Assembly: GCA_028554795.2 (NCBI GenBank)
Contig: CM068839.1
Location: forward strand, 11,063,220 to 11,127,219
Reading direction: 5' to 3'
DNA length: 64,000 nucleotides
DNA from: Sinohyriopsis cumingii
Taxonomy: Eukaryota > Mollusca > Bivalvia > Unionida > Unionidae
Of this stretch, positions 6,215-63,436 are shown piece after piece. Made by a program: the position numbers and the translations under genes. Positions within the stretch are counted from its first letter, which is position 1, and every line of letters begins with the position of its first letter. The notes under the pieces were generated by a model, which saw nothing but the letters and a program-made list of their open reading frames with translations, was not told the DNA's origin and ran no database searches.

Positions 6215-6362
6215 TAAGGTACCAGCAGATCAGGTTTATATTGTTATGCTCTATTGATTGTTCCTAACAAACTGCATGGACCCAGATTGGCTGGTGCATG
6301 ATGTAATGGCAGATCTTGGTCTATACAGTTTGCACTTGGATCCAGCTTATAAGCAGGTACAT
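6215..6362 (+). mobile_element. Nested-palindrome MITE, partial copy
   Basis: The right half is well kept: GACCCAGATTGGCTGGTGCA pairs with the nearby GGCAGATCTTGGTC, then CAGTTTGCACTTGGATCCAG and CTTATAAGC follow. The left half is reduced to a remnant (CAGCAGATCAGG). It belongs with the full copies at 61-63 kb. Confidence 0.7.
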
Positions 6363-6423
6363 GCATTACTTATCACCAACAACAATCACATAGCTATCAC
6401 TTCCATCCTGCTGTTTTCATGTT

Positions 6424-7175
6424 TTACATGTATTTACTGGCATATGATGTCATACAATTATGAAGTACCAGAATATGGTTTTACATATATTTACTTGCAT
6501 ATGATGTCATACAATTATGAAGTACCAGAATATGGTTTTACATGTATTTACTGGCATATGATGTCATACAATTATGAAGTACCAGAATATGGTTTTACAT
6601 GTATTTACTTGCATATGATGTCATACAATTATGAAGTACCAGAATATGGTTTTACATGTATTTACTGGCATATGATGTCATACAATTATGAAGTACCAGA
6701 ATATGGTTTTACATGTATTTACTGGCATATGATGTCATACAATTAGGAAGTACCAGAATATGGTTTTACATGTATTTACTTGCATATGATGTCATACAAT
6801 TATGAAGTACCAGAATATGGTTTTACATGTATTTACTGGCATATGATGTCATACAATTATGAAGTACCAGAATATGGTTTTACATGTATTTACTTTCTTA
6901 TGATGTCATACAGTTATGAAGTACCAGAATATGGTTTTACATGTATTTACTTGCATATGATGTCATACAATTATGAAGTACCAGAATATGGTTTTACATG
7001 TATTTACTGGCATATGATGTCATACAATTATGAAGTACCAGAATATGGTTTTACATGTATTTACTTTCTTATGATGTCATACAGTTATGAAGTACCAGAA
7101 TATGGTTTTACATGTATTTACTGGCATATGATGTCATACAATTATGAAGTACCAGAATATGGTTTTACATGTATT
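6424..7175. repeat. Minisatellite, 57-bp unit, about 13 copies
   Basis: The unit holds GAAGTACCAGAATATGGTTT then ACATGTATTTACTGGCATAT. Two to three subtypes (ACTGGCAT, ACTTGCAT, ACTTTCTT) alternate in patches. Because 57 is a multiple of three, one frame stays open as a 19-residue repeat (HMMSYNYEVPEYGFTCIYW). One unit has a stop. I read this as non-coding. Confidence 0.95.
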
Positions 7176-7525
7176 ATTATTTTACTCATTCATCACATTT
7201 ACAGTCATTGTTTCACATAATAAAGATGAGGGATGTAACTATTCTAAAATTTAAGGCATTTTCATTGCAATGGCAGGATTGTTGCAATGACCAATGTAGC
7301 TGTAATTTAATGACTTGATTGTTGTAGCAAGGAGTTGTCTGTATCTCAGAAAGTTTCATACTCTGAAATGGTTTGTTCTTGAGCTTCACAGATATGACAG
7401 AATTAAATGTACACTTCAGCCGTCATTAAGCAGTCATAAAATAGTATCAAATGGGCTTCTAGGCATGAGTGACCTCTGAATGGAGGTTCAACTATTAAAC
7501 CTGGTTCATGAACAAGATATCTTTT
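7176..7525. other. Unique non-coding stretch
   Basis: About 350 bp between a minisatellite and an ATT microsatellite. Nothing recognisable. Confidence 0.5.
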
Positions 7526-7569
7526 ATTATTACTATTATTATTATTATTATTACTATTATTACTATTAC

Positions 7570-7608
<39 letters not shown>

Positions 7609-7620
7609 CATTATTATTGT
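7526..7620. repeat. (ATT)n microsatellite
   Basis: About 30 trinucleotides of ATT/ACT. The poly-tyrosine and poly-isoleucine open frames over it are artefacts. Confidence 0.95.
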
Positions 7621-7834
7621 CTTTATTTTTATTGTTACTATTACTTTAGTAAGTTTCAGTTTTATTCCAAAATCTTCAATCAGTATTCTGAAAATTTTCA
7701 CGCTTTTTAATTTTCTTTATTGGGGAATTTTTTTTCAGGCAGTTAAGATATATGTCGAAGAATTCACTGTACAATTTATCATTCATAAGTTCTGATGGTA
7801 AAGGGTCTCATTTGTAGATTGTTTCAAGCTTTCC

Positions 7835-8058
7835 CTCTATAGTACATTTCTGAGTTTTCACTGATATATGTGGTAAGGTGGCTTTCCCTCTATAGTACAT
7901 TTCACTGATATATGTGGTAAGGTGGCTTTCCCTCTATAATACATTTCACTGATATATGTGGTAAGGTGGCTTTCCCTCTATAATACATTTCACTGATATA
8001 TGTGGTAAGGTGGCTTTCCCTCTATAGTACATTTCACTGATCCATGTGGTAAGGTGGC
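7835..8058. repeat. Minisatellite, 44-bp unit, 5 copies
   Basis: The unit includes GCTTTCCCTCTATAGTACAT and CACTGATATATGTGGTAAGG at an exact 44-bp spacing (for example 7,881 and 7,925). The first unit has an extra TGAGTTTT. Confidence 0.93.
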
Positions 8059-8650
8059 AGTTAGCTCAGCTGCTTGTTATATTGCAGCTGGTATCATTTG
8101 TCTCAGAAATAACAGACCTAGGCTAAATATTGATAGTGTCCACCCAAGGATTAAAAGGTTTGCTTTGTTCAAAGACTTGTGATGCCTTTAACATACAAAC
8201 TCTGGAAACTCTGGATAAAGCATAGGGCAGAAAGTGATTTTTTTCCAGATCTGGATAAAGTATGGAAAATACAGATTTTGGCCATTCGGTCTGAAGAAAG
8301 TATGTTATTTCAGGTTTTGTTTTGTTATTGCAACAAAACAAAAAACTCATTTACTTGACTCTGGTGATAATACTATGGAACGAACTCCCAGATCAAATAG
8401 ATTATAAATAATCTAAATGTGTTCAAAACAAAAACAAATGACTACTATGTAGAAAGACAATTTTCCATGTAAACTTTGAAATACATTTATTGTGTTAATG
8501 CATTTCATGGACACTTTGTGATTTATCCTAAATTGTACAAAAAAAGAAATTTTAAAATGTTTTTTATCTCTTGTGTTTCCAATAATTTCTTCATCCTGAG
8601 AGTTTCAGGAGAGAATTGCATTATATACTGAGTTACTCTCATAAAATAAA

Positions 8651-8652
<2 letters not shown>
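8059..8652. other. Unique non-coding stretch
   Basis: No gene seen. A weak tRNA A-box-like string (TTAGCTCAGCTG) at about 8,061 has no matching B box, so I do not call an RNA gene. Confidence 0.5.

Positions 8653-8691
<39 letters not shown>
8653..8691. repeat. (TTA)n microsatellite
   Basis: About 13 uninterrupted ATT/TTA trinucleotides. Confidence 0.95.
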
Positions 8692-8692
<1 letters not shown>

Positions 8693-10255: not shown

Positions 10256-10520
10256 GTACCAAAGACTTATAAAATGGTTCTAACAGCTGCCTTGCTAGGT
10301 GCTCAGCATTAAGAGGTTAGTGTTAGGACTGGTCGGCCTGGTGTCAGGATAATGTGACTGGGTGGGACATCATGCTACATGTCTGTGGCATGATGCTCCA
10401 GTGTTAGACATCACTATAAACTGCCACACTGCAGTCATGGTAGTGATATGACTGGAAAATTGTTAAAGCTATGTTAAAAATCCAAATCACACACATGCAT
10501 ACACATACACACACACTCAA
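10256..10520 (+). mobile_element. SINE family A, copy lacking the tRNA head
   Basis: The body matches the full copy at 63,468-63,790: CAGCTGCCTTGCTAGGTGCT, GGCCTGGTGTCAGGATAATG, CACTATAAACTGCCACACTG and a (CA)n tail. The tRNA-related head is missing, as expected for a 5'-truncated insertion. No target-site duplication was found. Confidence 0.88.
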
Positions 10521-10879
10521 AATGGGGTTGGGGATGAAACTAATTGCTGAGACCAGGTGGCGGGTGTATTTTTTTATTTACTACCTCAATGCAATTTGTA
10601 TGCTTTACCTTGGATAAGCATGGTTAATACAACCTTGAAAAATCCTTAAATTTGAGTGATTTCATAAATACCTGAATTTGAAAGAAGTTGGTTTTATCCT
10701 TGAAAAGTTCTTGAATATTTTTAAAATAAGTCCTCAGATTTTTCCCATAACTTCTTGAACATATCTGACAAAATACACATATTAAAACTGGATAAAACTG
10801 AGTGGTTCAGATGACACTTGATTCAAGTAGTTACCTGGTGGAGTAGTGTCCCTTTGCAGTTGCTGTTGTGGCACATTAC
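10521..10879. other. Unique non-coding stretch
   Basis: About 360 bp between a SINE tail and a transposon end. Nothing recognisable. Confidence 0.45.
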
Positions 10880-13667: not shown

Positions 13668-15268
13668 TTTAGCAAGCATATATTTTCTCTTTGGGTCTTG
13701 GTGTATAATTTAGCAAGCATATATTTTCTCTTTGGGTCTTGGTGTATAATTTAGCAAGCATGTATTTTCTCTTTGGGTCTTGGTGTATAATTTAGCAAGC
13801 ATATATTTTCTCTTTGGGTCTTGGTGTATAATTTAGCAAGCATATATTTTCTCTTTGGGTCTTGGTGTATAATTTAGCAAGCATATATTTTCTCTTTGGG
13901 TCTTGGTGTATAATTTAGCAAGCATATATTTTCTCTTTGGGTCTTGGTGTATAATTTAGCAAGCATATATTTTCTCTTTGGGTCTTGGTGTATAATTTAG
14001 CAAGCATATATTTTCTCTTTGGGTCTTGGTGTATAATTTAGCAAGCATATATTTTCTCTTTGGGCCTTGGTGTATAATTTAGCAAGCATATATTTTCTCT
14101 TTGGGCCTTGGTGTATAATTTAGCAAGCATATATTTTCTCTTTGGGTCTTGGTGTATAATTTAGCAAGCATATATTTTCTCTTTGGGTCTTGGTGTATAA
14201 TTTAGCAAGCATATATTTTCTCTTTGGGTCTTGGTGTATAATTTAGCAAGCATATATTTTCTCTTTGGGTCTTGGTGTATAATTTAGCAAGCATATATTT
14301 TCTCTTTGGGTCTTGGTGTATAATTTAGCAAGCATATATTTTCTCTTTGGGTCTTGGTGTATAATTTAGCAAGCATATATTTTCTCTTTGGGTCTTGGTG
14401 TATAATTTAGCAAGCATATATTTTCTCTTTGGGTCTTGGTGTATAATTTAGCAAGCATATATTTTCTCTTTGGGTCTTGGTGTATAATTTAGCAAGCATA
14501 TATTTTCTCTTTGGGTCTTGGTGTATAATTTAGCAAGCATATATTTTCTCTTTGGGTCTTGGTGTATAATTTAGCAAGCATATTTTTTTATCTTTGGGTC
14601 TTGGTGTATAATTTAGCAAGCATATATTTTCTCTTTGGGCCTGGGTGTATAATTTAGCAAGCATATATTTTCTCTTTGGGTCTTGGTGTATAATTTAGCA
14701 AGCATATATTTTCTCTTTGGGTCTTGGTGTATAATTTAGCAAGCATATATTTTCTCTTTGGGCCTGGGTGTATAATTTAGCAAGCATATATTTTCTCTTT
14801 GGGTCTTGGTGTATAATTTAGCAAGCATATATTTTCTCTTTGGATCTTGGTGTATAATTTAGCAAGCATATATTTTCTCTTTGGGTCTTGGTGTATAATT
14901 TAGCAAGCATATATTTTCTCTTTGGGCCTTGGTGTATAATTTAGCAAGCATATATTTTCTCTTTGGGTCTTGGTGTATAATTTAGCAAGCATATATTTTC
15001 TCTTTGGGTCTTGGTGTATAATTTAGCAAGCATATATTTTCTCTTTGGGTCTTGGTGTATAATTTAGCTAGCATATATTTTCTCTTTGGGTCTTGGTGTA
15101 TAATTTAGCAAGCATATATTTTCTCTTTGGGTCTTGGTGTATAATTTAGCAAGCATATATTTTCTTTTTGGGTCTTGGTGTATAATTTAGCAAGCATATA
15201 TTTTCTCTTTGGGTCTTGGTGTATAATTTAGCAAGCATATATTTTCTCTTTGGGTCTTGGTATATAAT
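13668..15268. repeat. Minisatellite, 41-bp unit, about 39 copies
   Basis: The unit reads TTTAGCAAGCATATATTTTC then TCTTTGGGTCTTGGTGTATA and one A. Units are nearly identical. Rare variants (GGGCCTTGG, GGGCCTGGG, one TTTTTTTAT, one GATCTTGG) are scattered or paired. It lies wholly inside the TTAA element. Confidence 0.97.
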
Positions 15269-16093: not shown

Positions 16094-17085
16094 TGGTAGA
16101 TTGTTTACATAGATAAGAAAGAGGAGAGGACCTAAAACAGCCTTGAGGGACCTCTGAATGAATAGTGCAAATCTGTGAGCTAATAATTCTAAATCTTATT
16201 TTTTGAGACCTTTGGTTTACTATGATCTAAACCAGTTTAAAGAAAGATTGTCAAATCTTTAACAGTTCAGTTTTTGTAGCAGAATTTCATGATCAGTGAG
16301 TTCAAAAGCTTTGTTGAAGTCAAGGAAAACAATCTGATGGATAGAACCATTATCCATTTCTTGCTGCCAAAGTGCTGTTAATTTGGTAAGTTCTGTTTGG
16401 CATAAGTAGTTCTTTCTAAATCCTGATTGTACTTTATGAAATATAGTGTAAGTTTTAAAAAAATCATACACTTGCTTTTCAAAAAATTCTGATAATATCG
16501 GTAGAATGGATAAAGGCCTGTAATTCCCAGTATCCTCCTTTTCTCCTTTCTTAAAGATAGGTGTAACCTTTGCACATTTCAGTGCTTCTGGAAAATCTCC
16601 ACTCATACTTAAGTTTATGATATGTGTCAGTGACTTTCTTATTACTGGTGCGGCAATTTTAAGAATTCGTGGACCAATCCCATCTAGTCCAGAGGATTTA
16701 TTAATACTCAACTTATTGAGCAAATTAAAAACATCAGCTTCACTAACATTAGCTATTGACAAATATTTATCATCAGGAATTTTATAAATGATAGAAGAGC
16801 ATCACGTTCAATTGGGATGTTAGTCTGGTTCTGAATACTGTTACTGGAGATGCTTATGAAGAAATTATTGAACATTTCCACAATGTCTTGTACAGATGTT
16901 GCTATGTCATCATTTTGCTCAAGTCTAGGGGGAAGACAACTGTTCCTGGGTGGGTTCAGCTCTTTTAGATGCTTCCATAATGTCTTGGTACTCTTACTTT
17001 CATCAGTAGCCTGTTTATAGTAGTTCTCTTTTGCCTTACCTATCAGGTGCTTAGCTTTATTCCTCCACTTTCTATAGCTTTTCAT
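16094..17085 (-). pseudogene. LINE linker and reverse transcriptase N-terminal half
   Basis: The first piece (17,085-16,753) begins MKSYRKWRNKAKHLIGKAKE and is the basic linker between endonuclease and RT typical of CR1/Jockey-type LINEs. The second (16,762-16,259) carries the RT landmarks: LNKLSINKSSGLDGIGPRIL (motif 0), AKVTPIFKKGEKEDTGNYRP with LSILPILSEFFEK (motifs 1-2), VQSGFRKNYLCQTELTKL, and IVFLDFNKAFELTDHEILLQ (motif A; the second conserved acidic D of 'KAFDTvDH' reads E here). After a stop at 16,259, weaker similarity goes on to the insertion point at 16,093, with IHSEVPQG recognisable. At least three frame breaks or stops are present. Confidence 0.9.
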
Positions 17086-19868: not shown

Positions 19869-20735
19869 GTAGGTAGTTTTTTTCCCCCAGTTCCACGTCT
19901 GTTTCAGTAGATTTTAAATAGAACATTTGGAACTATGAATTTTAAAAATATGCTTCCATATGCTGGGGGAAACATGAGGACAGCAACGATTGTAGTGTGG
20001 GCACATTGTTGCATTATTCTTGTTTGTCAGAAGGCAATTATTTTTATCATAATTTTTTATGGAGTATGTTTATTTTCCCTCTAAACAAGTCATCAATTGA
20101 AAGTCAGCAGTGTTAAAGTGCTTTGTGTAAGTTTTTGGAAGTCACCTCTCATCTTCTTCTTATTGGCTATGTTCAACTATATCTATTGTAAAAATAATAC
20201 CATGTCCAAATGTTTGTTCTTGTATAGCTTGAGTCAGAATGGTGCAAACAATTAATGCCTAATGAAGTCATAATGCTGAAGTGAAGGCAGGTAATTGAAT
20301 CCATTTGCCCATTGTTCAAACACTAGTTAATATAGGACATATATACAGTATAATAAAACAAAATCAGTTTCCTCCATACACTATGATTTGTTGACTGTGT
20401 TGGGTATTAATAAATTGTTCCACCATTTTGACTTTGGCTATATGCAAGGAATTTCTTTCTCCCTGGGTGAGATGAATCATGACACCATTTACAGATATTA
20501 GATACAGTGTTCCTTGGAAAACACTTGTGTTAATTCAATTCTTGAGAGATTACCTACTTTATTCTATCCTAATTTTTATTTAGTTAGATATTCACAATGA
20601 CAGCAATCAGAAGAGTGAAAGCTAACCATTAATAAAATGCAAAATGAAGCCCACCAAGCAGAAGATTGGTAACAGCAGTTTTGTGCTGTTAGAGTTGTCT
20701 TGGAATTATATTGTCATTACTGTGCTTATTCCTTC
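19869..20735. other. Unique non-coding stretch
   Basis: No gene, RNA or element recognised in about 870 bp. Confidence 0.5.
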
Positions 20736-20739
20736 ATAA

Positions 20740-20885
20740 ACCACACTACAGACCCAGATTTGCTGTCATGTATTGCTGTTTGTCTACTTTCAATTTTCAT
20801 GTAGACATTGTAAACCCAGATGTACAAGACAGTATGCAGTGACATATCCGGGTCTACAATGTTTGCAGGTAGGTGTGCATTATGA
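20740..20885 (+). mobile_element. Nested-palindrome MITE, diverged copy
   Basis: ACAGACCCAGATTTGCTGTC on the left and CATATCCGGGTCTACAATGT with TTGCAGGT on the right match the family layout. A possible second fragment (ACCATATGTACTTGCATA ... TGCATAGACCCA) lies at 20,967-21,030. Confidence 0.6.
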
Positions 20886-21400
20886 ACTGGTAAATATGGT
20901 AATTGGTGTCCATAACAATCTTTAATGCATAGGCATCAGTACAAATGTTAGATGAGTACCATATGTACTTGCATACTGGTGACAGATAAAATGCAAATTG
21001 CATAGACCCATTTTGCATTCACACTGATAAAGTAATGTTTTTTCAACTGTACACAGACATGCAGTCATCTGCAACTGACACCAATTGTAGATTGGAAAAA
21101 AAGTTAATAACTGTTTACAAAGGTTTAAAAAACACTGCATAAATCTGCTACAATTTGACCAAATCAAAAAGAACTAGCTTGAATATACCCTCAAATTAAC
21201 TACTGCTTGAATGGATAGTTATTAATTTAGTTGTTTGTTTTTCCCCCAAGAACCACACATAGATTTGTTTTAATATAGTTATTATTATAACAAATGCTGA
21301 ATCGTTGCAAAATCAAATTGATGTGTTGTCAATATACTTAAATTTTTTCTGTTCTGTAATTCTGTCAATGTTAAGTGGTTTATTAACATTACTATGACAT

Positions 21401-27940: not shown

Positions 27941-27944
27941 TGTA

Positions 27945-28145
27945 CTGTATGTATTTGCATATAAGTTGGTCAAGCTGCAAACAACATCGACTTTGATCTG
28001 CTATCTCATAATGCACTGATACATCAAATTTTATGTTACCTCAGTCCTAGCAAACTGTATCTACCAAGATATGCTTTTACATTATGTTATGGTTGATCTG
28101 GGTCCATACAGTTTGCAGTTTGATGTAACTTGTATTGGAGTACGT
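27945..28145 (+). mobile_element. Nested-palindrome MITE, near-complete copy
   Basis: The left arm is TACTGTATGTATTTGCATAT, then AAGTTGGTCAAGCTGCAAAC, then TGATCTGCTATCTCATAATG. The right arm is TACATTATGTTATGGTTGAT, CTGGGTCCATACAGTTTGCA, ending near GGAGTACGTATAGTA. The outer arms are inverted copies of each other. Confidence 0.78.
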
Positions 28146-28740
28146 ATAGTATCAGTAATAAGCTTGTAAATAATGGTATTCAGTCATTTGTGCCCGAGCA
28201 TATTTACACGTTTTTAGGGTTTGCTATTAGCTTCAGGTTGTTTCCATTTTATAATGTACAGACAACCCACATGGTCTATTATGCCTTATTATCGTGGTAT
28301 TTCTTGCCGACAATTACCAAAAGGAAAATGATCTAAGTTTATTATAGGGCCTTCTTTTACAATGAATAATAAGATAGACACTTGCAATATATTTTACGAG
28401 TGTACATCGTAATTAACTGAACATCAAATCAAGGATCTTCCTGTCACTAATTATACTTATGAAGAATGGGATAATTGATTGTGCAGGATGTGGTCTAACA
28501 GATTCATCATTAAAAGGGGCGACTCGTAGGTTGCATGGTAAATAAGTGACCAGTACAATCAATACATGTCCAGAATCTATAACTTTCTCATCCAATGAGG
28601 CTGTACATCAGTTACATTCTGTCCATTTTCACTATGGAAGTCCATCAGTTAAACATAGGGTCTGTCTTTTGTCATACCATGAAAGTCCATCAGTTAAACT
28701 TAGTGACCATCTTTTGTCATTGGTTTATGCCAAGGATGTT
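28146..28740. other. Unique stretch with a short direct repeat
   Basis: GAAAGTCCATCAGTTAAAC-type words occur twice (28,636 and 28,681 regions) just before the 67-bp array. Otherwise nothing recognisable. Confidence 0.45.
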
Positions 28741-30543
28741 TGTCCATGGAGGGTCTGTATTTGACAATGATCATGATAAAATGTACCAAGCACAGACAGG
28801 CTTAGTTTGTCCATGGAGGGTCTGTATTTGATAATGATCATGATAAAATGTACCAAGCACAGACAGGCTTAGTTTGTCCATGGAGAGTCTGTATTTGACA
28901 ATGATCATGATAAAATGTACCAAACACAGACAGGCTTAGTTTGTCCATGGAGGGTCTGTATTTGATAATGATCATGATAAAATGTACCAAGCACAGACAG
29001 GCCTAGTTTATCCATGGAGGGTCTGTATTTGATAATGATCATAATAAAATGTACCAAGCACAGACAGGCTTAGTTTGTCCATGGAGGGTCTGTATTTGAC
29101 AATGATCATGATAAAATGTACCAAGCACAGACAGGCTTAGTTTGTCCATGAAGGGTCTGTATTTGACAAATATCATGATAAAATGTACCAAACACAGACA
29201 GGCTTAGTTTGTCCATGGAGGGTCTGTATTTGACAGTGATCATGATAAAATGTACCAAGGACAGACAGGCTTAGTTTGTCCATGAAGGGTCTGTATTTGA
29301 CAAATATCATGATAAAATGTACCAAGCACAGACAGGCTTAGTTTGTCCATGGATGGTCTGTATTTGACAATGATCATGATAAAATGTACCAAACACAGAC
29401 AGGCTTAGTTTGTCCATGGATGGTCTGTATTTGACAATGATCATGATAAAATGTACCAAGCACAGACAGGCTTAGTTTGTCCATGGAGGGTCTGTATTTG
29501 ACAATGATCATGATAAAATGTACCAAGCACAGACAGGCTTAGTTTGTCCATGGAGGGTTTGTATTTGATAATGATCATGATAAAATGTACCAAGCACAGA
29601 CAGGCTTAGTTTGTCCATGGAAGGTCTGTATTTGACAGTGATCATGATAAAATGTACCGAGCACAGACAGGCTTAGTTTGTCCATGGAGGGTCTGTATTT
29701 GACAATGATCATGGTAAAATGTACCAAGCACAGACAGGCTTAGTTTGTCCATGGAGGGTCTGTATTTGACAATGATCATGATAAAATGTACCAAGCACAG
29801 ACAGGCTTAGTTTGTCCATGGAGGGTCTGTAATTGACAATGATCATGATAAAATGTACCAAGCACAGACAGGCTTAGTTTGTCCATGGAAGGTCTGTATT
29901 TGATATAGATCATGATAAAATGTACCAAACACAGACAGGCTTAGTTTGTCCATGGAGGATCTGTATTTGATAATGATCATGATAAAATGTACCAAGCACA
30001 GACAGGCTTAGTGTGTCCATGGAGGGTCTGTAATTGACAATGATCATGATAAAATGTACCAAGCACAGACAGGCTTAGTTTGTCCATGGAGGGTCTGTAT
30101 TTGATAATGATCATGATAAAATGTACCAAACACAGACAGGCTTAGTTTGTCCATGGAGGGTCTGTATTTGATAATGATCATGATAAAATGTACCAAACAC
30201 AGACAGGCTTAGTTTGTCCATGGAGGGTCTGTATTGGATAATGATCATGATAAAATGTACCAAACACAGACAGGCTTAGTTTGTCCATGGAGGGTCTGTA
30301 TTTGATAATGATCATGATAAAATGTACCAAACACAGACAGGCTTAGTTTGTCAAGTTTATATTTGATAATGATCATGATAAAATGTACCAAGCACAGACA
30401 GGCTTAGTTTGTCAAGTTTATATTTGATAATGATCATGATAAAATGTACCAAGCACAGACAGGCTTAGTTTGTCAAGTTTATATTTGATAATGATCATGA
30501 TAAAATGTACCAAGCACAGATAGGCTTAGTTTGTCAAGTTTAT
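28741..30543. repeat. Minisatellite, 67-bp unit, about 27 copies
   Basis: Units read TGTCCATGGAGGGTCTGTAT then TTGACAATGATCATGATAAA then ATGTACCAAGCACAGACAGG. The last four units share a shortened variant in which GTCAAGTTTATATTT replaces the CATGGAGGGTCTG part. This localised variant marks a recent end-of-array duplication. Confidence 0.96.
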
Positions 30544-31080: not shown

Positions 31081-31261
31081 TTCTTTTACCTAACAGGACC
31101 CAGTATGCTGAGCTTTTAACTTGCAGAAAGGGGTCGCATACAAGCTTTATATTCTGCTGTGAGTTCAGTAATAATATGTACTGTCATTCTTTTAGTTACT
31201 AAGAATAGTATTTCTTTTATTATTTTATTTTTGCTGTTCTCCATCTCCAGTACTCAGGATT

Positions 31262-34200
31262 AAGTATTGTTGATGTCATTGTGATATTTGCCTTCAGAAC
31301 TCATAAATAAGTATTGTTGATGTCATTGTGATTTTTGCCTTCAGAACTCATAAATAAGTATTGTTGATGTCATTGTGATTTTTGCCTTCAGAACTCATAA
31401 ATAAGTATTGTTGATGTCATTGTGATTTTTGCCTTCAGAACTCATAAATAAGTATTGTTGATGTCATTGTGAGTTTTGCCTTCAGAACTCATAAATAAGT
31501 ATTGTTGATGTCATTGTGAGTTTTGCCTTCAGAACTCATAAATAAGTTTTGTTGTTGTTTTATGAGTTTTACCTTCAGAACTCATAAATAAGTTTTGTTG
31601 TTGTTTTATGAGTTTTACCTTCAGAACTCATAAATAAGTATTGTTGTTGTTATTGTGAGTTTTGCCTTCAGAACTCATAAATAAGTATTGTTGATGTCAT
31701 TGTGAGTTTTTCCTTCAGAACTCATAAATAAGTATTGTTGATGTCATTGTGATTTTTGCCTTCAGAACTCATAAATAAGTATTGTTGATGTCATTGTGAT
31801 TTTTGCCTTCAGAACTCATAAATAAGTTTTGTTGTTGTTTTATGAGTTTTGCCTTCAGAACTCATAAATAAGTATTGTTGTTGTTATTGTGAGTTTTGCC
31901 TTCAGAACTCATAAATAAGTATTGTTGATGTCATTGTGAGTTTTGCCTTCAGAACTCATAAATAAGTTTTGTTGTTGTTTTATGAGTTTTACTTTCAGAA
32001 CTCATAAATAAGTATTGTTGTTGTTATTGTGAGTTTTGCCTTCAGAACTCATAAATAAGTATTGTTGATGTCATTGTGAGTTTTTCCTTCAGAACTCATA
32101 AATAAGTATTGTTGATGTCATTGTGATTTTTGCCTTCAGAACTCATAAATAAGTATTGTTGATGTCATTGTGAGTTTTGCCTTCAGAACTCATAAATAAG
32201 TATTGTTGATGTCATTGTGAGTTTTGCCTTCAGAACTCATAAATAAGTATTGTTGATGTCATTGTGAGTTTTGCCTTCAGAACTCATAAATAAGTTTTGT
32301 TGTTGTTTTATGAGTTTTACCTTCAGAACTCATAAATAAGTTTTGTTGTTGTTTTATGAGTTTTACCTTCAGAACTCATAAATAAGTATTGTTGTTGTTA
32401 TTGTGAGTTTTGCCTTCAGAACTCATAAATAAGTATTGTTGATGTCATTGTGAGTTTTTCCTTCAGAACTCATAAATAAGTATTGTTGATGTCATTGTGA
32501 TTTTTGCCTTCAGAACTCATAAATAAGTATTGTTGATGTCATTGTGAGTTTTGCCTTCAGAACTCATAAATAAGTATTGTTGATGTCATTGTGAGTTTTG
32601 CCTTCAGAACTCATAAATAAGTTTTGTTGATGTCATTGTGAGTTTTGCCTTCAGAACTCATAAATAAGTTTTGTTGATGTCATTGTGAGTTTTGCCTTCA
32701 GAACTCATAAATAAGTTTTGTTGATGTCATTGTGAGTTTTGCCTTCAGAACTCATAAATAAGTTTTGTTGATGTCATTGTGAGTTTTGCCTTCAGAACTC
32801 ATAAATAAGTTTTGTTGATGTCATTGTGAGTTTTGCCTTCAGAACTCATAAATAAGTTTTGTTGATGTCATTGTGATTTTTGCCTTCAGAACTCATAAAT
32901 AAGTATTGTTGATGTCATTGTGAGTTTTGCCTTCAGAACTCATAAATAAGTATTGTTGATGTCATTGTGAGTTTTGCCTTCAGAACTCATAAATAAGTAT
33001 TGTTGATGTCATTGTGAGTTTTGCCTTCAGAACTCATAAATAAGTATTGTTGATGTCATTGTGATTTTTGCCTTCAGAACTCATAAATAAGTATTGTTGA
33101 TGTCATTGTGAGTTTTGCCTTCAGAACTCATAAATAAGTATTGTTGATGTCATTGTGAGTTTTGCCTTCAGAACTCATAAATAAGTATTGTTGATGTCAT
33201 TGTGAGTTTTGCCTTCAGAACTCATAAATAAGTTTTGTTGTTGTTTTATGAGTTTTACCTTCAGAACTCATAAATAAGTATTGTTGTTGTTATTGTGAGT
33301 TTTGCCTTGAGAACTCATAAATAAGTATTGTTGATGTCATTGTGAGTTTTTCCTTCAGAACTCATAAATAAGTATTGTTGATGTCATTGTGAGTTTTGCC
33401 TTCAGAACTCATAAATAAGTATTGTTGATGTCATTGTGATTTTTGCCTTCAGAACTCATAAATAAGTATTGTTGATGTCATTGTGAGTTTTTCCTTCAGA
33501 ACTCATAAATAAGTATTGTTGATGTCATTGTGAGTTTTGCCTTCAGAACTCATAAATAAGTATTGTTGATGTCATTGTGAGTTTTTCCATCAGAACTCAT
33601 AAATAAGTATTGTTGATGTCATTGTGAGTTTTGCCTTCAGAACTCATAAATAAGTATTGTTGATGTCATTGTGAGTTTTGCCTTCAGAACTCATAAATAA
33701 GTATTGTTGATGTCATTGTGAGTTTTGCCTTCAGAACTCATAAATAAGTATTGTTGATGTCATTGTGAGTTTTGCCTTCAGAACTCATAAATAAGTATTG
33801 TTGATGTCATTGTGAGTTTTGCCTTCAGAACTCATAAATAAGTATTGTTGATGTCATTGTGAGTTTTGCCTTCAGAACTCATAAATAAGTTTTGTTGTTG
33901 TTTTATGAGTTTTACCTTCAGAACTCATAAATAAGTATTGTTGTTGTTATTGTGAGTTTTGCCTTCAGAACTCATAAATAAGTATTGTTGATGTCATTGT
34001 GAGTTTTGCCTTCAGAACTCATAAATAAGTTTTGTTGTTGTTTTATGAGTTTTACCTTCAGAACTCATAAATAAGTTTTGTTGTTGTTTTATGAGTTTTA
34101 CCTTCAGAACTCATAAATAAGTATTGTTGTTGTTATTGTGAGTTTTGCCTTCAGAACTCATAAATAAGTATTGTTGATGTCATTGTGAGTTTTGCCTTCA

Positions 34201-36255
34201 GAACTCATAAATAAGTTTTGTTGATGTCATTGTGAGTTTTGCCTTCAGAACTCATAAATAAGTTTTGTTGATGTCATTGTGAGTTTTGCCTTCAGAACTC
34301 ATAAATAAGTTTTGTTGATGTCATTGTGAGTTTTGCCTTCAGAACTCATAAATAAGTTTTGTTGATGTCATTGTGAGTTTTGCCTTCAGAACTCATAAAT
34401 AAGGTTTGTTGATGTCATTGTGAGTTTTGCCTTCAGAACTCATAAATAAGTATTGTTGATGTCATTGTGAGTTTTGCCTTCAGAACTCATAAATAAGTAT
34501 TGTTGATGTCATTGTGAGTTTTGCCTTCAGAACTCATAAATAAGTATTGTTGATGTCATTGTGAGTTTTGCCTTCAGAACTCATAAATAAGTATTGTTGA
34601 TGTCATTGTGAGTTTTGCCTTCAGAACTCATAAATAAGTATTGTTGATGTCATTGTGAGTTTTGCCTTCAGAACTCATAAATAAGTATTGTTGATGTCAT
34701 TGTGAGTTTTGCCTTCAGAACTCATAAATAAGTATTGTTGATGTCATTGTGAGTTTTGCCTTCAGAACTCATAAATAAGTTTTGTTGTTGTTTTATGAGT
34801 TTTACCTTCAGAACTCATAAATAAGTATTGTTGTTGTTATTGTGAGTTTTGCCTTCAGAACTCATAAATAAGTATTGTTGATGTCATTGTGAGTTTTTCC
34901 TTCAGAACTCATAAATAAGTATTGTTGATGTCATTGTGAGTTTTGCCTTCAGAACTCATAAATAAGTTTTGTTGATGTCATTGTGATTTTTGCCTTCAGA
35001 ACTCATAAATAAGTATTGTTGATGTCATTGTGAGTTTTTCCTTCAGAACTCATAAATAAGTATTGTTGATGTCATTGTGAGTTTTGCCTTCAGAACTCAT
35101 AAATAAGTATTGTTGATGTCATTGTGAGTTTTTCCATCAGAACTCATAAATAAGTATTGTTGATGTCATTGTGAGTTTTGCCTTCAGAACTCATAAATAA
35201 GTATTGTTGATGTCATTGTGAGTTTTGCCTTCAGAACTCATAAATAAGTATTGTTGATGTCATTGTGAGTTTTGCCTTCAGAACTCATAAATAAGTATTG
35301 TTGATGTCATTGTGAGTTTTGCCTTCAGAACTCATAAATAAGTATTGTTGATGTCATTGTGAGTTTTGCCTTCAGAACTCATAAATAAGTATTGTTGATG
35401 TCATTGTGAGTTTTGCCTTCAGAACTCATAAATAAGTTTTGTTGTTGTTTTATGAGTTTTACCTTCAGAACTCATAAATAAGTATTGTTGTTGTTATTGT
35501 GAGTTTTGCCTTCAGAACTCATAAATAAGTATTGTTGATGTCATTGTGAGTTTTTCCTTCAGAACTCATAAATAAGTATTGTTGATGTCATTGTGAGTTT
35601 TGCCTTCAGAACTCATAAATAAGTTTTGTTGATGTCATTGTGAGTTTTGCCTTCAGAACTCATAAATAAGTTTTGTTGATGTCATTGTGAGTTTTGCCTT
35701 CAGAACTCATAAATAAGTTTTGTTGATGTCATTGTGAGTTTTGCCTTCAGAACTCATAAATAAGTATTGTTGATGTCGTTGTGAGTTTTGCCTTCAGAAC
35801 TCATAAATAAGTATTGTTGATGTCATTGTGAGTTTTGCCTTCAGAACTCATAAATAAGTATTGTTGATGTCATTGTGAGTTTTGCCTTCAGAACTCATAA
35901 ATAAGTATTGTTGATGTCATTGTGAGTTTTGCCTTCAGAACTCATAAATAAGTATTGTTGATGTCATTGTGAGTTTTGCCTTCAGAACTCATAAATAAGT
36001 ATTGTTGATGTCATTGTGAGTTTTGCCTTCAGAACTCATAAATAAGTATTGTTGATGTCATTGTGAGTTTTGCCTTCAGAACTCATAAATAAGTATTGTT
36101 GATGTCATTGTGAGTTTTGCCTTCAGAACTCATAAATAAGTATTGTTGATGTCATTGTGAGTTTTGCCTTCAGAACTCATAAATAAGTTTTGTTGATGTC
36201 ATTGTGAGTTTTGCCTTCAGAACTCATAAATAAGTATTGTTGATGTCATTGTGAT
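31262..36255. repeat. Giant minisatellite, 47-bp unit, about 106 copies, higher-order structure
   Basis: The main unit is AAGTATTGTTGATGTCATTG then TGAGTTTTGCCTTCAGAACT then CATAAAT. A 46-bp subtype has TTGTTGTTGTTTTATGAG. Others have TTGTTGTTGTTATTGTGAG, GAGTTTTTCC, GATTTTTGCC, or AAGTTTTGTTGATG. The subtypes recur in blocks in the same order. A private variant (TTTTTCCATCAG) occurs at 33,581 and 35,128, 1,547 bp apart (about 33 units), showing a large segmental duplication inside the array. Confidence 0.97.
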
Positions 36256-41365: not shown

Positions 41366-41640
41366 AATAGAGCATCCATCTCAGAAGTGGGAAGTCACTG
41401 GTTTGAACCCTGGCTGAGTCATATTAAAGACCTACAAATGGTACCAACAGCTGCCTAGCTACGTGCTAAGCATTAGGAGGTTAATGTTAGGACTGGTTGG
41501 CCTGGTGTCAGGATAATGCAACATGTCTGTGGCATGATGCTCCAGTGCTTGATATCACTATAAACTGCCACACTGCTGACATCACAGAGATATGACTGAA
41601 AAATTGTTAAAGCAGCATTAAAAATCCAAATCACACTCAC
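41366..41640 (+). mobile_element. SINE family A, nearly full copy
   Basis: Part of the tRNA head is present (AGAGCATCCATCTCAGAAGT, B box GGTTTGAACCC). The body has CAGCTGCCTAGCTACGTGCT, GGTTGGCCTGGTGTCAGGAT and CACTATAAACTGCCACACTG, with a short CACTCAC tail. A stretch present in other copies (GTGACTGGGTGGGACATCAT) is deleted. No target-site duplication was found. Confidence 0.88.
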
Positions 41641-41949: not shown

Positions 41950-42055
41950 GAAGTACCGTACGTACTCACTAATAAGGCGAGTCCAACAGCAAATTGCACA
42001 GACCCAGATCTGCCATTGCATAATGCACTAGCATGTCTGTGTTGATGCAGTTCAA
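41950..42055 (+). mobile_element. Nested-palindrome MITE, left half
   Basis: CCGTACGTACTCACTAATAA, GTCCAACAGCAAATTGCA, then CAGACCCAGATCTGCCATTG with CATAATGCACTAGCATGTCT. Only the left arm with its inner hairpin remains. Confidence 0.75.
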
Positions 42056-42735
42056 GATGATATAAAGTTTTGGAGATAATTTACATGGATCACGGCCTTA
42101 TAATAATCCCATGAAGTTAAATGATCAGCTGTTAAGTTACTGTATGTAGTAAGCCTCGTGAGTTATTTCAGGCCTTGGTGTCTTTTTAAATGAAAATAAA
42201 GTTTATCTTTCAAATGTTCAGAGCTTAAATAATTTGAATAGATGTATACCATTTAGGTGATACATGCTGTTATGATAGACAAGCTTTATGTTATTAAAAA
42301 TCTTCATTATTAGAACTTGTTGCCATTGCGTACATTATTATATGTGGAGTCACAGTCGGATCATCACATCCTCTTGTACCTTAATCAACGGACTTTTTAA
42401 AATATAGCTGTGCCCATTGAAACATTAAGTCAAATGATATCTGCCATGGTTCATGACTTTGCTTATAAATTTACAGAAATTCCAGGGCATTTTTAGCTGG
42501 TCACTAAAAAGTTTGGTATTGTACACCAGTGGTACTATATGTATATGAACAGATTGACATAATTTACAAACAAAAAAAACAAAACAAACATTGGAACAAC
42601 AATTAGAACCAAGATGTTTTGCTTTGTAAAATGCTAAAACGAAATTAAACACCAACACATTATGTTGTCATTGTTATTTATTGGTAGGCATGGTTATAAT
42701 GGAACTTATTTTATCTGGACTACTTTCATACAGCA
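42056..42735. other. Unique non-coding stretch
   Basis: No gene or element recognised. Confidence 0.45.
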
Positions 42736-43017: not shown

Positions 43018-44505
43018 CTACACAGAGAGAAAAATAATTTTTAATGTTCAGGTACTTGATGATAAATTTGGAATACACACAGAGAGAAAAATAATTTTTA
43101 ATGTTCAGGTACTTGATGATAAATTTGGAATACACACAGAGAGAAAAATAATTTTTAATGTTCAGGTATTTGATGATAAATTTGGAATACACACAGAGAG
43201 AAAAATAATTTTTAATGTTCAGGTACTTGATGATAAATTTGGAATACACACAGAGAGAAAAATAATTTTTAATGTTCAGGTACTTGATGATAAATTTGGA
43301 ATACACACAGAGAGAAAAATAATTTTTAATGTTCAGGTACTTGATGATAAATTTGGAATACACACAGAGAGAAAAATAATTTTTAATGTTCAGGTACTTG
43401 ATGATAAATTTGGAATACACACAGAGAGAAAAATAATTTTTAATGTTCAGGTACTTGATGATAAATTTGGAATACACACAGAGAGAAAAATAATTTTTAA
43501 TGTTCAGGTACTTGATGATAAATTTGGAATACACACAGAGAGAAAAATAATTTTTAATGTTCAGGTACTTGATGATAAATTTGGAATACACACAGAGAGA
43601 AAAATAATTTTTAATGTTCAGGTACTTGATGATAAATTTGGAATACACACAGAGAGAAAAATAATTTTTAATGTTCAGGTACTTGATGATAAATTTGGAA
43701 TACACACAGAGAGAAAAATAATTTTTAATGTTCAGGTACTTGATGATAAATTTGGAATACACACAGAGAGAAAAATAATTTTTAATGTTCAGGTACTTGA
43801 TGATAAATTTGGAATACACACAGAGAGAAAAATAATTTTTAATGTTCAGGTACTTGATGATAAATTTGGAATACACACAGAGAAAAATAATTTTTAATGT
43901 TCAGGTACTTGATGATAAATTTGGAATACACACAGAGAGAAAAATAATTTTTAATGTTCAGGTACTTAATGATAAATTTGGAATACACACAGAGAGAAAA
44001 ATAATTTTTAATGTTCAGGTACTTGATGATAAATTTGGAATACACACAGAGAGAAAAATAATTTTTAATGTTCAGGTACTTGATGATAAATTTGGAATAC
44101 ACACAGAGAGAAAAATAATTTTTAATGTTCAGGTACTTGATGATAAATTTGGAATACACACAGAGAGAAAAATAATTTTTAATGTTCAGGTACTTGATGA
44201 TAAATTTGGAATACACACAGAGAGAAAAATAATTTTTAATGTTCAGGTACTTGATGATAAATTTGGAATACACACAGAGAGAAAAATAATTTTTAATGTT
44301 CAGGTACTTGATGATAAATTTGGAATACACACAGAGAGAAAAATAATTTTTAATGTTCAGGTACTTAATGATAAATTTGGAATACACACAGAGAGAAAAA
44401 TAATTTTTAATGTTCAGGTACTTGATGATAAATTTGGAATACACACAGAGAGAAAAATAATTTTTAATGTTCAGGTACTTGATGATAAATTTGGAATACT
44501 GGTAT
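43018..44505. repeat. Highly uniform minisatellite, 57-bp unit, about 26 copies
   Basis: Units read TTAATGTTCAGGTACTTGAT then GATAAATTTGGAATACACAC then AGAGAGAAAAATAATTT. Almost no variation: two units read TTAATGAT, one reads GGTATTTG, and one lacks two bases (near 43,880). As 57 is divisible by three, both strands stay open for hundreds of codons, and the 2-bp loss breaks the minus frame in two. I read this as recent array growth, not a gene. Confidence 0.96.
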
Positions 44506-47565: not shown

Positions 47566-47567
47566 AG

Positions 47568-47805
47568 TGTGTGTGTGATTTGGATTTTTAACATAGCTTT
47601 AACAATTTTTCAATCATATCACTACGATGTCTGCAGTTTTGCAGTTTATAATGATGTCTAGCACTGGGGCATCATGTCACAGACATGTAGCATGATGTTG
47701 CACCCAGTCACATTATCCAGACACCAGGCCATCCAGGCCTAACACTAACCTCTTAATGCTGAGCGCCAAGCAAGGCAGCTGTTAGTACCATTTTTGATAG
47801 TCTTT
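47568..47805 (-). mobile_element. SINE family A, headless copy
   Basis: On the plus strand it reads as the inverse of the SINE A body: GTGTGTGTGATTTGGATTTT (tail), TAACATAGCTTTAACAATTT, GGGGCATCATG, CTCTTAATGCTGAGCGCCAA and CAGCTGTTAGTACCATTTTT. The tRNA head is absent. An open frame through it is an artefact. Confidence 0.88.
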
Positions 47806-56215: not shown

Positions 56216-56217
56216 GA

Positions 56218-56302
56218 TGTGTGTGCGTGTGATTTGAATTTTTAACGTAGCTTTAACAATTTTTCAGTCATATCACTATGAAGTCTGCATTGTGGCAGTT
56301 TA
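56218..56302 (-). mobile_element. SINE family A, 3' tail fragment
   Basis: TGTGTGCGTGTGATTTGAAT, TTTTAACGTAGCTTTAACAA and TTTTTCAGTCATATCACTAT are the inverse of the SINE A 3' end, cut after GTGGCAGTTTA. Confidence 0.85.
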
Positions 56303-56989: not shown

Positions 56990-57165
56990 TACTATATATA
57001 CCAGTGTATAATGTGCACCAGGTGGCACAGACCCATTCTCGTACAGTACATTATGCATATCAGGGAACCAGTACTATGTGTGTACCTGTGTATATTGTTG
57101 ACCCAAATGACACAGACCTAGTCTAATATAATGCATTATGCACTGGCAGATCAGGGATCCACTTG
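56990..57165 (+). mobile_element. Nested-palindrome MITE, rearranged copy
   Basis: CCAGTGTATAATGTGCACCA, GGCACAGACCCATTCTCGTA and CATTATGCATATCAGG are followed by a second set (GACACAGACCTAGTCTAATA, TGCATTATGCACTGGCAGAT, CAGGGATCC). A related scrap is at 57,580-57,665. Confidence 0.68.
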
Positions 57166-57579
57166 TTATGACTCCTTTGTCTGAAACTATGCAACAGAAA
57201 GAAGCAAAACCAACAAGTTTAGTTTAATCAACAAATAGTTTATTTCCTTATGTTACACAGTGAAAATTTAAGAGGAACTTGCAATATTTTCAATTAAATA
57301 TATACAAAAACTAAATGTTGTATCACAAGTCTAAAAATATAGAATTTTCTATTGAATTCAGTGTCTTGAATGTACTGATGTACCACTAGTGTTGACTGTC
57401 TTGATTCATACATGATGTCAGGTCTTGAACTTAAATTCAATCAATTATCATGACAGAAATCAGGTAGACAAAACCCTCAGCCATGACAATAGTCAAGGAG
57501 GCCAAAAGTCTACCCTCAACCATGGACAAAGGGCAATCACACAGTATAAATTAATAGGTGCTATAAGATCAGGGAATCA
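57166..57579. other. Unique non-coding stretch
   Basis: Nothing recognisable. The open frame at 57,425-57,670 runs into MITE sequence. Confidence 0.45.
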
Positions 57580-57665
57580 GTACTATTATATCCCTGTGTA
57601 TATTATTGACCCAAATGGCATAGACCCAGTCTCATATAGTGCATTAAACACTGATAAATTTATAA
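57580..57665 (+). mobile_element. Nested-palindrome MITE, fragment
   Basis: GTACTATTATATCCCTGTGT, ATTGACCCAAATGGCATAGA, CCCAGTCTCATATAGTGCAT and AACACTGATAAATTTA parallel the copy just upstream at 57,070-57,160. Confidence 0.6.
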
Positions 57666-58446: not shown

Positions 58447-58450
58447 TTAA

Positions 58451-59107: not shown

Positions 59108-59111
59108 TTAA

Positions 59112-59821: not shown

Positions 59822-59825
59822 TTAA

Positions 59826-60471: not shown

Positions 60472-60483
60472 TTAGAAATGTTG

Positions 60484-60728
60484 TTGTTGTGGGTTTAATG
60501 CCATTTTTCAGCACACGATAGGCTATGCATAGCGGCCAGTATTAATGATGGAGTAAGAACCTGGGAAAACCCCGGGAAGAACCACCAACCCACGAGAAGT
60601 TACTGGCAAGCTTTCTCACATACCCACTTTGGCCGAATCCTAGATTCAAACCCACGCAGACACAGGTGAGATGGTAGTGATCTGTAACGGATAGCGCTTT
60701 AGACCATTCGGCCACTTGGGGCCCCCCC
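60484..60728 (-). mobile_element. SINE family B, full copy beside a transposon end
   Basis: It matches the SINE at 21,401-21,659 along its length: (TTG)n, GTGGGTTTAATGCCATTTTT, CCCCGGGAAGAACCA, and the tRNA-related head on the minus strand GTGGCCGAATGGTCTAAAGC. Near-identical CTTAGAAATGTTG / CTTAGAAATATTG flank it, so it landed at the right edge of the TTAA transposon. Confidence 0.9.
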
Positions 60729-61184
60729 ACTTAGAAATATTGAACTTTGAACCAAATGTAGCATGTTGTACCACATTATCATTAAGAAGTTACGGCCCCT
60801 GATGGCTAAATTTACTATCTGAAGCGTTACTTTACAAAGAAATGTTGGATTTAAACAAGCTTAGCATGCACCATTTTGTGAAAAGACCTTGAATGAGCTG
60901 AGTTTCTAGCAATCAACATCATCATTTAGAAGAGTTATGGCCCCTGAATGTCCTTGTTCTTCAAAGTTAGGTTTTCCATCAGATAGTCCATTGTTAAAGG
61001 CCTCTCAAAGCAAATTGTGGGCACTGGGGCCCTTTATGATTCATCCAGTGCAAGTTTCATTTGGAACAAAGAATGAAAAATTAATGTTGCCAGTTCTCCA
61101 CAACTTTTGGTATTCTGCAAGAATTATTGAGGTGTTGTCAGTTCTGTACAATGTTTGGTATACTGCAAGGCCATTATCATTACC
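60729..61184. other. Unique non-coding stretch
   Basis: Contains repeated 'AAGAGTTATGGCCCCTGA'-like words (60,787 and 60,930), typical of decayed dispersed repeats. The open frame at 60,937-61,317 has no family features. Confidence 0.45.
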
Positions 61185-61400
61185 TTATATACATATATAT
61201 TCACTTATAAGTTGGGTCCAGCTGCAAACTGCAGACTCAGATCTGCCATCACATAATGTGCCAGCAGGTCTAGGTCTATACAATTTGTTAAGAGTAATCA
61301 TTAGAACCAATAAATAGACCCTGGTCTGCCTGCACATTATCCAATGGCAGATCAGGGTCTATGTTGTTTGCAGTTGGAGCTGACTTATAACACAAACATC
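61185..61400 (+). mobile_element. Nested-palindrome MITE, full copy
   Basis: Left arm: CACTTATAAGTTGGGTCCAG, CTGCAAACTGCAGACTCAGA, TCTGCCATCACATAATGTGC with CAGCAGGTCTAGGTCTATAC. Right arm: ATAGACCCTGGTCTGCCTGC, ACATTATCCAATGGCAGATC, AGGGTCTATGTTGTTTGCAG, TTGGAGCTGACTTATAA. Each arm folds on itself and the two arms also pair with each other. Confidence 0.85.
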
Positions 61401-61871
61401 AATATACAGTGCTTTAAAAATATATAAACATCAAGATTTTAATGCAAATAAAAGAATGAGCCTGATAGGAGTTATCTTAGGCAATGATTGTAGCAAATAT
61501 ATTGAGCATTGTATAAGCTGCAAGCACACGCATGTCTCTAAACTGCTACTCTCTTTGCTCCTGACCCCCCCCACCAGTATAAATTAATTTACTGCTTTGC
61601 TAAAAAATGATGACATTGATTGTCTCTTTAAATGTGAAATACACTGGCTGAGGGAAATACACTGGCAAAGGGGAGAGATAACACTGGCTGAGAAGAGAGA
61701 TAACACTTAACAGAAATATCTCTGGATATATTTTGTACCTAATAAAAAGCCAAGTTTGATAAGTAAAATTAATTATGATATTGGTTTACTACAAAATATA
61801 TTATAAAAACTTTTTCATACACTTTAGATCAAATAAAAAATTTCTTCCAAAACATAAACACCAACATGCAC
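61401..61871. other. Unique non-coding stretch
   Basis: A short imperfect repeat (ACACTGGCTGAGGGAAATAC and like, 61,640-61,700) is the only structure. Confidence 0.45.
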
Positions 61872-62092
61872 AACATATATACTTGCTAATGAGTTGAATC
61901 GAACTGCAGACAGCAAAGATCCAAATCTGCCATTGTGTAGTGTGTCAGCAGATCAGGGTCTGTGTTCTTTGTTCTACTGATTACTATGAACAAAAAGCAT
62001 AGACCCAGATAAGCCAGCACATTATGTCACGGCAGATCTGGGTCTGTGCATTTTGTCTTTGGGCTCAACTTATAATCTGGTATATATGGTAC
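61872..62092 (+). mobile_element. Nested-palindrome MITE, full copy
   Basis: Outer arms ACATATATACTTGCTAATGA and CAACTTATAATCTGGTATAT. Inner hairpins are AAATCTGCCATTGTGTAGTG / CAGCAGATCAGGGTCTGTGT and AGACCCAGATAAGCCAGCAC / CACGGCAGATCTGGGTCTGT. Confidence 0.85.
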
Positions 62093-62293
62093 CAGATGTA
62101 TATAGCCGCCCTTTTATGTGACATTTATTCATCTCACAATTACTTTTATCTGACAGAAATATTGGAAACCATTGTGTTGTATAAAATTGAGTCTAATCAA
62201 TGCAATTTCCGAGTGTGACACTAAGTTAAGCACAACATTTACTAATCTAGTGCAAAATGTATTCTTTTAACCTGTAGTCAGGCAAGCAGAATA

Positions 62294-62950
62294 TCATGCC
62301 ATTTAACCATAGTGTGGGTCTAGCTGCCTTTAGTAAGGGATGCTTTGCCTATTCATGCCATTTAACCATAGTGTGGGTCTAACTAGTAAGGGATGCCTTG
62401 CCTATTCATGCCATTTAACCATAGTGTGGGTCTAGCTAGTGTGGGATGCCTTGCCTATTTATGCAATTTAACCATAATGTGGGTCTAGCTAGTGTGGGAT
62501 GCCTTGCCTATTCATGCCATTTAACCATAGTGGAGGTCTAGCTAGTGTGGGATGCCTTGCCTATTCATGCCATTTAATCATAGTGCAGGTCTAGCTAGTA
62601 AGGGATGCCTTGCCTATTCATGCCATTTAACCAGTGTGGGTCTAGCTAGTGTGGGATACCTTGCCTATTCATGCCATTTAACCATAGTGCAGGTCTAGCT
62701 AGTAAGGGATGCCTTGCCTATTCATGCCATTTAACCATAGTGCAGGTCTAGCTAGCAAGGGATGCTTTGCCTATTCATGCCATTTAACCATAATGTTGGT
62801 CTAACTAGCAAGGGATGCCTTGCCTATTCATGCCATTTAACCATAGTGCAGGTCTAGCTAGCAAGGGATGCCTTGCCTATTCATGCCATTTAACCATAAT
62901 GTTGGTCTAACTTCCTTTAGTAAGGGATGCTTGGCCTATTCATGCCATAC
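62294..62950. repeat. Minisatellite, about 53-bp unit, about 12 copies
   Basis: Units read CTATTCATGCCATTTAACCA then TAGTGTGGGTCTAGCTAGTG then TGGGATGCCTTGC. GTGGG/GCAGG/GTTGG and GTGTG/GTAAG/GCAAG variants are mixed. The first and last units keep a longer form with CTGCCTTTAG or CTTCCTTTAG. Confidence 0.95.
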
Positions 62951-63237
62951 AACACTCTTTGCTATCACTGGATCCCATGACCAAAATCATAAAAGTATAT
63001 AACCAAATGGGTTGAAAGAAAACAATTTGAAGCTTAGTTTTTTAAAAATCTTATTTTACCTTTTCAAAACACCATTATTAAACAACTTTTGATAATTTAT
63101 ATATGCACAAATCTTGTTATCACGCAAGAAATAAGAGCATGTATATTAGGATAATTTAGCGTATTTTACATTTTGACACATTAAATACTTCCCCCCAAAA
63201 TTTACTGACACATTGAAAAAAAACAATTACACAGATA

Positions 63238-63436
63238 ATGCCGTATATACTTGCTTACATGTCTAGTCTAGATCTGCCATTCCATAATGCACCAACAGAT
63301 ATGGATCTATACATTTGTTTGGAGTTTATGAGTAGACTAAACAACATGACCCTGGTCTGCTAGCACATTATGCTTTGGTTGATCAGGTATTTGTTGTTTG
63401 CAGTTGGATTTGACTTTTAAGTGAGTATATACGGCA
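63238..63436 (+). mobile_element. Nested-palindrome MITE, full copy with clear ends
   Basis: It opens GCCGTATATACTTGC and closes, inverted, with the same GCCGTATATAC (11 of 11). Inner hairpins: TAGATCTGCCATTCCATAAT / CACCAACAGATATGGATCTA and TGACCCTGGTCTGCTAGCAC / TGCTTTGGTTGATCAGGT. No obvious target-site duplication. Confidence 0.85.

Follow-up and report, generated by a model that had tools for sequence, protein, structure and literature searches.

A family of short TA-flanked elements built of nested palindromes in the genome of Sinohyriopsis cumingii

Introduction

A 64,000-nucleotide stretch of the genome of the bivalve Sinohyriopsis cumingii, referred to here as the window (G000:C16:11063220-11127219, within a 2.90-Gb assembly of 1138 contigs), contains a family of short repeats in which two palindromes are enclosed within a larger inverted repeat. 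The locus raises the questions of what kind of element this is, how it came to be copied and whether its double symmetry serves any purpose. A preliminary description, made from the window alone, had listed nine places with the repeat and had read it as a miniature inverted-repeat transposable element (MITE), a single strand of which could fold as two hairpins on a stem. According to PMC10294476, MITEs occupy a considerable share of bivalve genomes.

The repeat is probably a non-autonomous, TA-flanked cut-and-paste DNA transposon of about 221 bp, that is, a MITE of the IS630-Tc1-mariner/pogo superfamily, a judgement that includes the step to the superfamily although this step is less certain. 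The palindromes are genuinely nested and were already so in the masters that were amplified, whilst a need for this layout finds no support here. The kind of element is ordinary and known; its double palindrome layout is unusual.

Copies across the genome

With the copy at 61.9 kb of the window as query, 73 matches were obtained, the best 40 of 3125 first-look candidates having been scored, and these gave 39 other places at 77–81% identity. The 61.2-kb copy gave 71 matches (best 40 of 5177 first-look candidates scored) and likewise 39 other places, at 79–85% identity. Since both sets consist of the best-scoring places, they lean toward low divergence and toward the two window copies used as queries. 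The 61.9-kb copy and its 39 other places align from end to end to give a 221-bp consensus with the termini TACCATATATAC...GTATATATGGTA, beyond which the flanks cannot be aligned, and the copies are spread over many chromosomes. A nearly identical consensus was generated from 20 of the 39 places found with the 61.2-kb query. Locus L017 was excluded from one alignment (A2), its extracted segment being 254 bp long. By a rule of our own, in which a full-length copy runs from profile position 8 or lower through position 213 or higher, 64 of 82 elements are full length; this count covers loci L009-L091 and the window, L001-L008 being excluded as they repeat other loci. The copies are decayed, the mean Kimura two-parameter (K2P) distance of 39 of them to the consensus being 0.144.

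Most copies carry the dinucleotide TA at each end (T 70% and A 78% on the left, T 88% and A 90% on the right), with no longer duplication visible by eye beyond the ends of the aligned copies. At 221 bp the consensus lies well within the size of a MITE (<600 bp) and holds at most 73 codons, too small for a transposase, and the copy number is high, with terminal inverted repeats and defined ends common to the dispersed copies. The earlier reading as a MITE is thus supported by the end-to-end copies and the TA flanks, as well as by the fold discussed below.

Abundance was estimated from 20 segments of 10 kb, placed at round positions chosen arbitrarily on 14 contigs and amounting to 192.5 kb once Ns were removed. 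Eight copies were found in three of the segments, two of them weak (22–24 bits), and none in the reversed sample. The naive density of about one per 24 kb would correspond to possibly the order of 10^5 copies genome-wide, with a wide error because the sampled copies cluster: five lie within about 5 kb of a single 10-kb segment (L055:1267-6222). Three copies similarly lie within 2.3 kb at 61–63 kb of the window. Such clustering would be expected of a satellite, or of local duplication mediated by the hairpins, yet the presence on many chromosomes, the sharp ends and the unalignable flanks make an origin of this kind very improbable.

Copies within the window

The window was searched with a profile hidden Markov model (HMM) of 40 genome copies, including the 61.9-kb copy, which consequently matches by construction. 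The profile recognises six strong copies (6.2, 27.9, 41.95, 61.2, 61.9 and 63.2 kb, that at 41.95 kb being a half), one partial copy (20.7 kb) and weak copies at 20.96 and 57.0 kb, where the best match to the reversed window had an expectation value (E) of 3 (Table 1). With as many as three mismatches allowed, the window has 20 matches to the core motif GACCCAGATCTGCC, where 1.87 would be expected from shuffles; none of 100 shuffles reaches 20.

Seven of the nine places in the preliminary description therefore hold up in the profile, whereas that at 57.0 kb is weak and that at 57.6 kb is rejected as a family member (E = 0.45), sharing a different unit with 57.0 kb. Some of the boundaries also move. 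The 6.2-kb copy, which had been started at 6215, begins at about 6158 by the profile. In the alignment of genome copies ACTTATAAG, proposed as an end of the element, sits inside the terminal repeat, and GCCGTATATACTTGC, the other proposed end, is exact in only one copy, that at 63.2 kb. The outer arms of this copy, 63239-63268 and 63407-63436, form an inverted repeat with 80% complementarity. The separate unit of 57.0 and 57.6 kb is a repeat of about 90 bp, at 57059-57160 and 57568-57653, with 85% identity over 87 positions, and its end has about 25 bp in common with the element's hairpin.

Table 1. Element copies and other features located in the window (scores are those of the element profile)
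Feature	Position	Strand	Evidence
Full-length copy, best match of the window, TA at right end	61871..62091	+	214.1 bits, E 3.4e-65; copy itself in profile
H1, first inner hairpin within the 61.9-kb copy	61907..61971; arms 61907-61930 and 61948-61971	+	Inverted repeat, 71% complementary
H2, second inner hairpin within the 61.9-kb copy	61990..62056; arms 61990-62022 and 62024-62056	+	Inverted repeat, 79% complementary
Near full-length copy, reverse orientation	61189..61410	-	179.3 bits
Full-length copy, left part decayed	6158..6368	+	122.6 bits
Copy with both ends, internal deletion	63239..63436	-	114.7 bits
Full-length copy, more diverged (TAGAC) subfamily	27943..28151	+	92.4 bits
Half of a copy, comprising the H2 side with a single terminal repeat	41954..42072	-	78.5 bits; profile positions 123-221
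Partial copy	20727..20901	-	28.8 bits, E 1.4e-8; profile positions 2-177
End piece of a further copy	20957..21043	-	14.2 bits, E 4e-4; profile positions 155-220
Weak, doubtful relative, carrying the separate unit shared with 57.6 kb	56990..57175	-	21.1 bits, E 3.2e-6
Tandem arrays, examples	31261-36254, 13668-15268, 28738-30535, 43020-44499

Anatomy and subfamilies

The element is formed of an outer repeat (about 36 bp), a first palindrome (H1), a spacer (about 18 bp), a second palindrome (H2) and a further outer repeat. As H1 and H2 lie in inverted orientation, whole arms are inverted repeats of each other, each of about 103 bp, of which some 36 bp are the outer part and some 65 bp the inner palindrome, with a middle of about 15 bp between the arms. 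The outer arms of the preliminary description are hence confirmed as inverted repeats, at a greater length than was described.

Among 65 full-length copies, a set selected mostly by similarity to the two window copies, 47 carry AAGAT in H1, eight carry TAGAC and ten carry neither. The mean K2P distance to the copies' own consensus is 0.139 in the AAGAT subfamily and 0.193 in the TAGAC subfamily, a difference in divergence that suggests the latter to be the older. Between the two arms, 91 of 110 compared positions are identical in the TAGAC subfamily, and 89 of 110 in the AAGAT subfamily. Of 23 core positions in the TAGAC consensus, all 23 match between the two sides of H1 and 22 between those of H2, while a comparison of H1 with H2 shows 3–4 differences; in the common consensus the agreement is 21 of 23 for H1 and 23 of 23 for H2.

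Hairpins whose arms are perfect or nearly so, and which nevertheless differ from each other, fit an origin by template switching during replication. Quasi-palindrome correction by template switching is a general mechanism, and it may have made and re-perfected the palindromes without selection, after which a transposase amplified the resulting MITE. An intermediate, recognisable by a tract of change on one side only, was not seen, although no detailed search for one was made. This origin is a real but tentative possibility, and it is compatible with the transposon reading preferred here.

Alternative folds and the maintenance of pairing

For the typed consensus the DNA fold has an energy of -88.8 kcal/mol against a shuffle mean of -23.6 (z -19.8) and the RNA fold one of -146 (z -20.4), in both cases as two hairpins on a stem; none of 200 shuffles was as good as the DNA fold. 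The preliminary description had named two outcomes that would count against it, namely that the palindromes were due to chance or that the copies failed to align end to end, and neither was found (0 of 200 shuffles; 64 of 82 elements full length). Its two hairpins on a stem are likewise supported, but only as one of two near-equal folds. With DNA energies the consensus of the diverged subfamily prefers a long arm-to-arm hairpin (-94.1 kcal/mol) to the three-way junction (-91.3), and that of the common subfamily places the two at -83.1 and -83.4 respectively, with a free minimum of -84.8 that is again the three-way form. In the energy model the consensus therefore has two folds of almost the same stability, the long hairpin and the three-way junction. 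When the 65 copies were folded singly, local hairpins were favoured in 38, the long hairpin in 22 and a mixture in five, by thresholds of our own. For the four window copies among them the fold is more stable than in mononucleotide shuffles, with z from -3.9 to -6.4.

The hairpins might be thought to be under selection, in that the three-way junction, or RNA hairpins formed from it, would function in transposition or regulation. The diverged consensus is in keeping with this, since its near-complete agreement within H1 and H2 means that the differences between the hairpins are mostly matched within each. The distribution of divergence points the same way: the hairpin stems, at 0.087–0.099, are less diverged than the loops (0.164–0.178) and the outer repeats (0.163–0.179), and the unpaired spacer, at 0.106, exceeds them slightly. 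The stems are thus the least diverged part, which leans toward constraint, although the high divergence of the outer repeats may be due in part to decay of CpG sites and to misaligned ends.

The pairing itself gives no such indication. In 40 copies, changes of both partners number 51 in the outer stem, 12 in H1 and 30 in H2, where 52.0, 13.1 and 29.3 are expected from the column frequencies. Double changes that still pair number 23, 9 and 23 respectively, against means of 26.4, 9.0 and 21.3 when the 3' letters were re-dealt 1000 times, and the observed values were reached by 840, 579 and 349 of these shuffles. Standard pairs (1078 of 1355 in the outer stem, 889 of 1031 in H1 and 1039 of 1187 in H2) were similarly reached by 733, 445 and 472 of the 1000. 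No compensatory change beyond the shuffles is therefore evident in any of the three stems in these 40 copies, and as paired double changes do not exceed the shuffles there is no sign of pairing being maintained after insertion. Moreover, the commoner subfamily makes up 47 of the 65 copies, a set weighted toward its window queries, yet has the less perfect H1, and 22 of the 65 favour the long hairpin. Rfam gave no matches at gathering score in the window, and the element is accordingly not classed as a structured RNA gene. Taken together, selection on the hairpins appears quite unlikely.

Target site and candidate transposases

A transposase for the element would be expected to belong to the IS630-Tc1-mariner group, and more likely to be of the pogo type (DDE_1) than of the Tc1/mariner type (DDE_3). 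The genome-wide search for pogo-type DDE_1 produced 2232 candidates and 150 scored matches; all of the latter lie above the cut-off, and open frames of 400–600 codons are present in many. That for DDE_3 gave nine matches of 110 scored. The pogo-type transposons are a large and apparently partly young amplification with several distinct ends. Inverted ends were detected in three of the four pogo loci L068-L071, starting CAGTGGAACC, CAGTAAAACC and CACCGCTCCC, and none in the fourth. TA precedes these ends, apart from one side of the third pair (CACCGCTCCC), a pair that is also weak (E 0.016).

Several observations weigh against the element being a TA-duplicating transposon of this superfamily. 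Neither the element profile nor that of its terminal repeat gave anything significant at the four pogo loci (of 150 scored), none of which has the element's ends, and an autonomous element bearing them was found neither there nor in the local sequence scanned, so that the longer partner for which the preliminary description suggested a search is missing from what was covered. The target-site duplication to be looked for by the same suggestion is a putative one, marked by TA at both ends of most copies. Joined flanks, available for the 46 of 64 full-length elements with enough flank, were compared with 261 kb of fetched sequence and the window, same-locus matches above 97% identity being hidden, and no empty site was found for any of them. 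The TA could instead represent the outermost bases of the terminal repeat. Finally, both subfamily consensuses have one minus-strand frame that is stop-free through all 73 codons, so the noncoding status of the element is not strictly shown. Among 25 copies of exactly 221 bp this frame is open in 6, and each of the other frames in none. Because of the symmetry of the element the peptide of this frame is partly self-repeating; the frame is tentatively taken as incidental.

Two candidates encountered in these comparisons were rejected. The single match spanning joined flanks, at L042, overlaps its own left flank and is not an empty site. Outside the known copies, the local sequence contains two weak terminal-repeat matches, at L013 and at 20957 of the window. 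The former, shared with L006, is not a partner; it is a copy of the element (L006:1781-2160, equal to L013:688-1002) split by a SINE-like insert, a tRNA-like short interspersed nuclear element (SINE) as read from its boxes. As GCAAACAACATAG occurs on both sides of this insert, the SINE was inserted later than the element.

As no partner with matching ends was found and the TA duplication is unproved, the superfamily is one that we infer. A partner from a superfamily other than pogo/Tc1-mariner would account for pogo ends unlike those of the element at the loci examined. Nonetheless it is unlikely, since flanking TA with no longer duplication is in keeping with the IS630-Tc1-mariner group, for which the classical target duplication is TA (PMC7386202). 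The same source gives pogo elements TA duplications and terminal repeats mostly of 40 bp or less, repeats of about 100 bp being found mainly in FotC elements.

Other repeats in the window

A short interspersed repeat at 63466-63790, SINE-like by eye, has further matches in the window at 10257-10495, 41368-41640, 47567-47804 and 56218-56302, and also in L009, L017, L020, L051, L053, L055 and L067; ARAGORN called no tRNA gene for it. Tandem arrays with varied units are very numerous throughout the window (50 rows, some overlapping), a 47-bp unit reaching 106 copies. A reverse-transcriptase fragment lies at 16259-16801 (Pfam RVT_1, E 1e-6; its 29 bits fall just under the cut-off, 29.6).

Discussion

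TA-flanked MITEs of the IS630-Tc1-mariner/pogo type are short and of high copy number, with terminal inverted repeats and TA at both ends, and all of these properties are shared by the present element. Pogo-derived MITEs of Arabidopsis were reportedly described by Feschotte and Mouches in 2000. The element differs from such MITEs in that its arms take up nearly the whole length, in that each arm is palindromic and in that no partner was found in the sequence covered. Foldback-type elements such as Galileo have long inverted-repeat arms and, like this element, are nearly all inverted repeat and self-folding, whereas this element is far shorter, is flanked by TA and has arms that are each largely one palindrome. 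The T-shaped terminal hairpins of the parvovirus type also place two small hairpins on a common stem; the likeness is one of geometry only, no kinship being claimed, as the present element is dispersed, genomic and TA-flanked. A search of the open-access literature found no account of these ends or of this layout, which does not show the family to be unpublished. The exact hairpin motif had no matches in a prokaryote collection and the end motif none in a viral collection, results that are uninformative on animal genomes.

On the transposon reading, a transposase encoded elsewhere in the genome would recognise the outer ends, excise the element and reinsert it at TA dinucleotides. The inner palindromes are best taken as subterminal sequence of a longer ancestral element, drawn together by loss of the coding middle, and the two folds would be a by-product of the symmetry. 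A more elaborate scheme, in which the three-way junction with its four iterated GACCCAGATCTGCC-like half-sites is recognised by the transposase or by a host hairpin processor, such that shape as well as end sequence drives amplification, is quite unlikely.

Most of the element is symmetrical at two levels, and its consensus is poised almost evenly, with a linear hairpin on the one side and a three-way junction on the other. The family provides a large natural sample of how nested palindromes arise, persist and decay, and the lack of any sign that the palindromes are kept after insertion is a caution against reading such shapes as functional.

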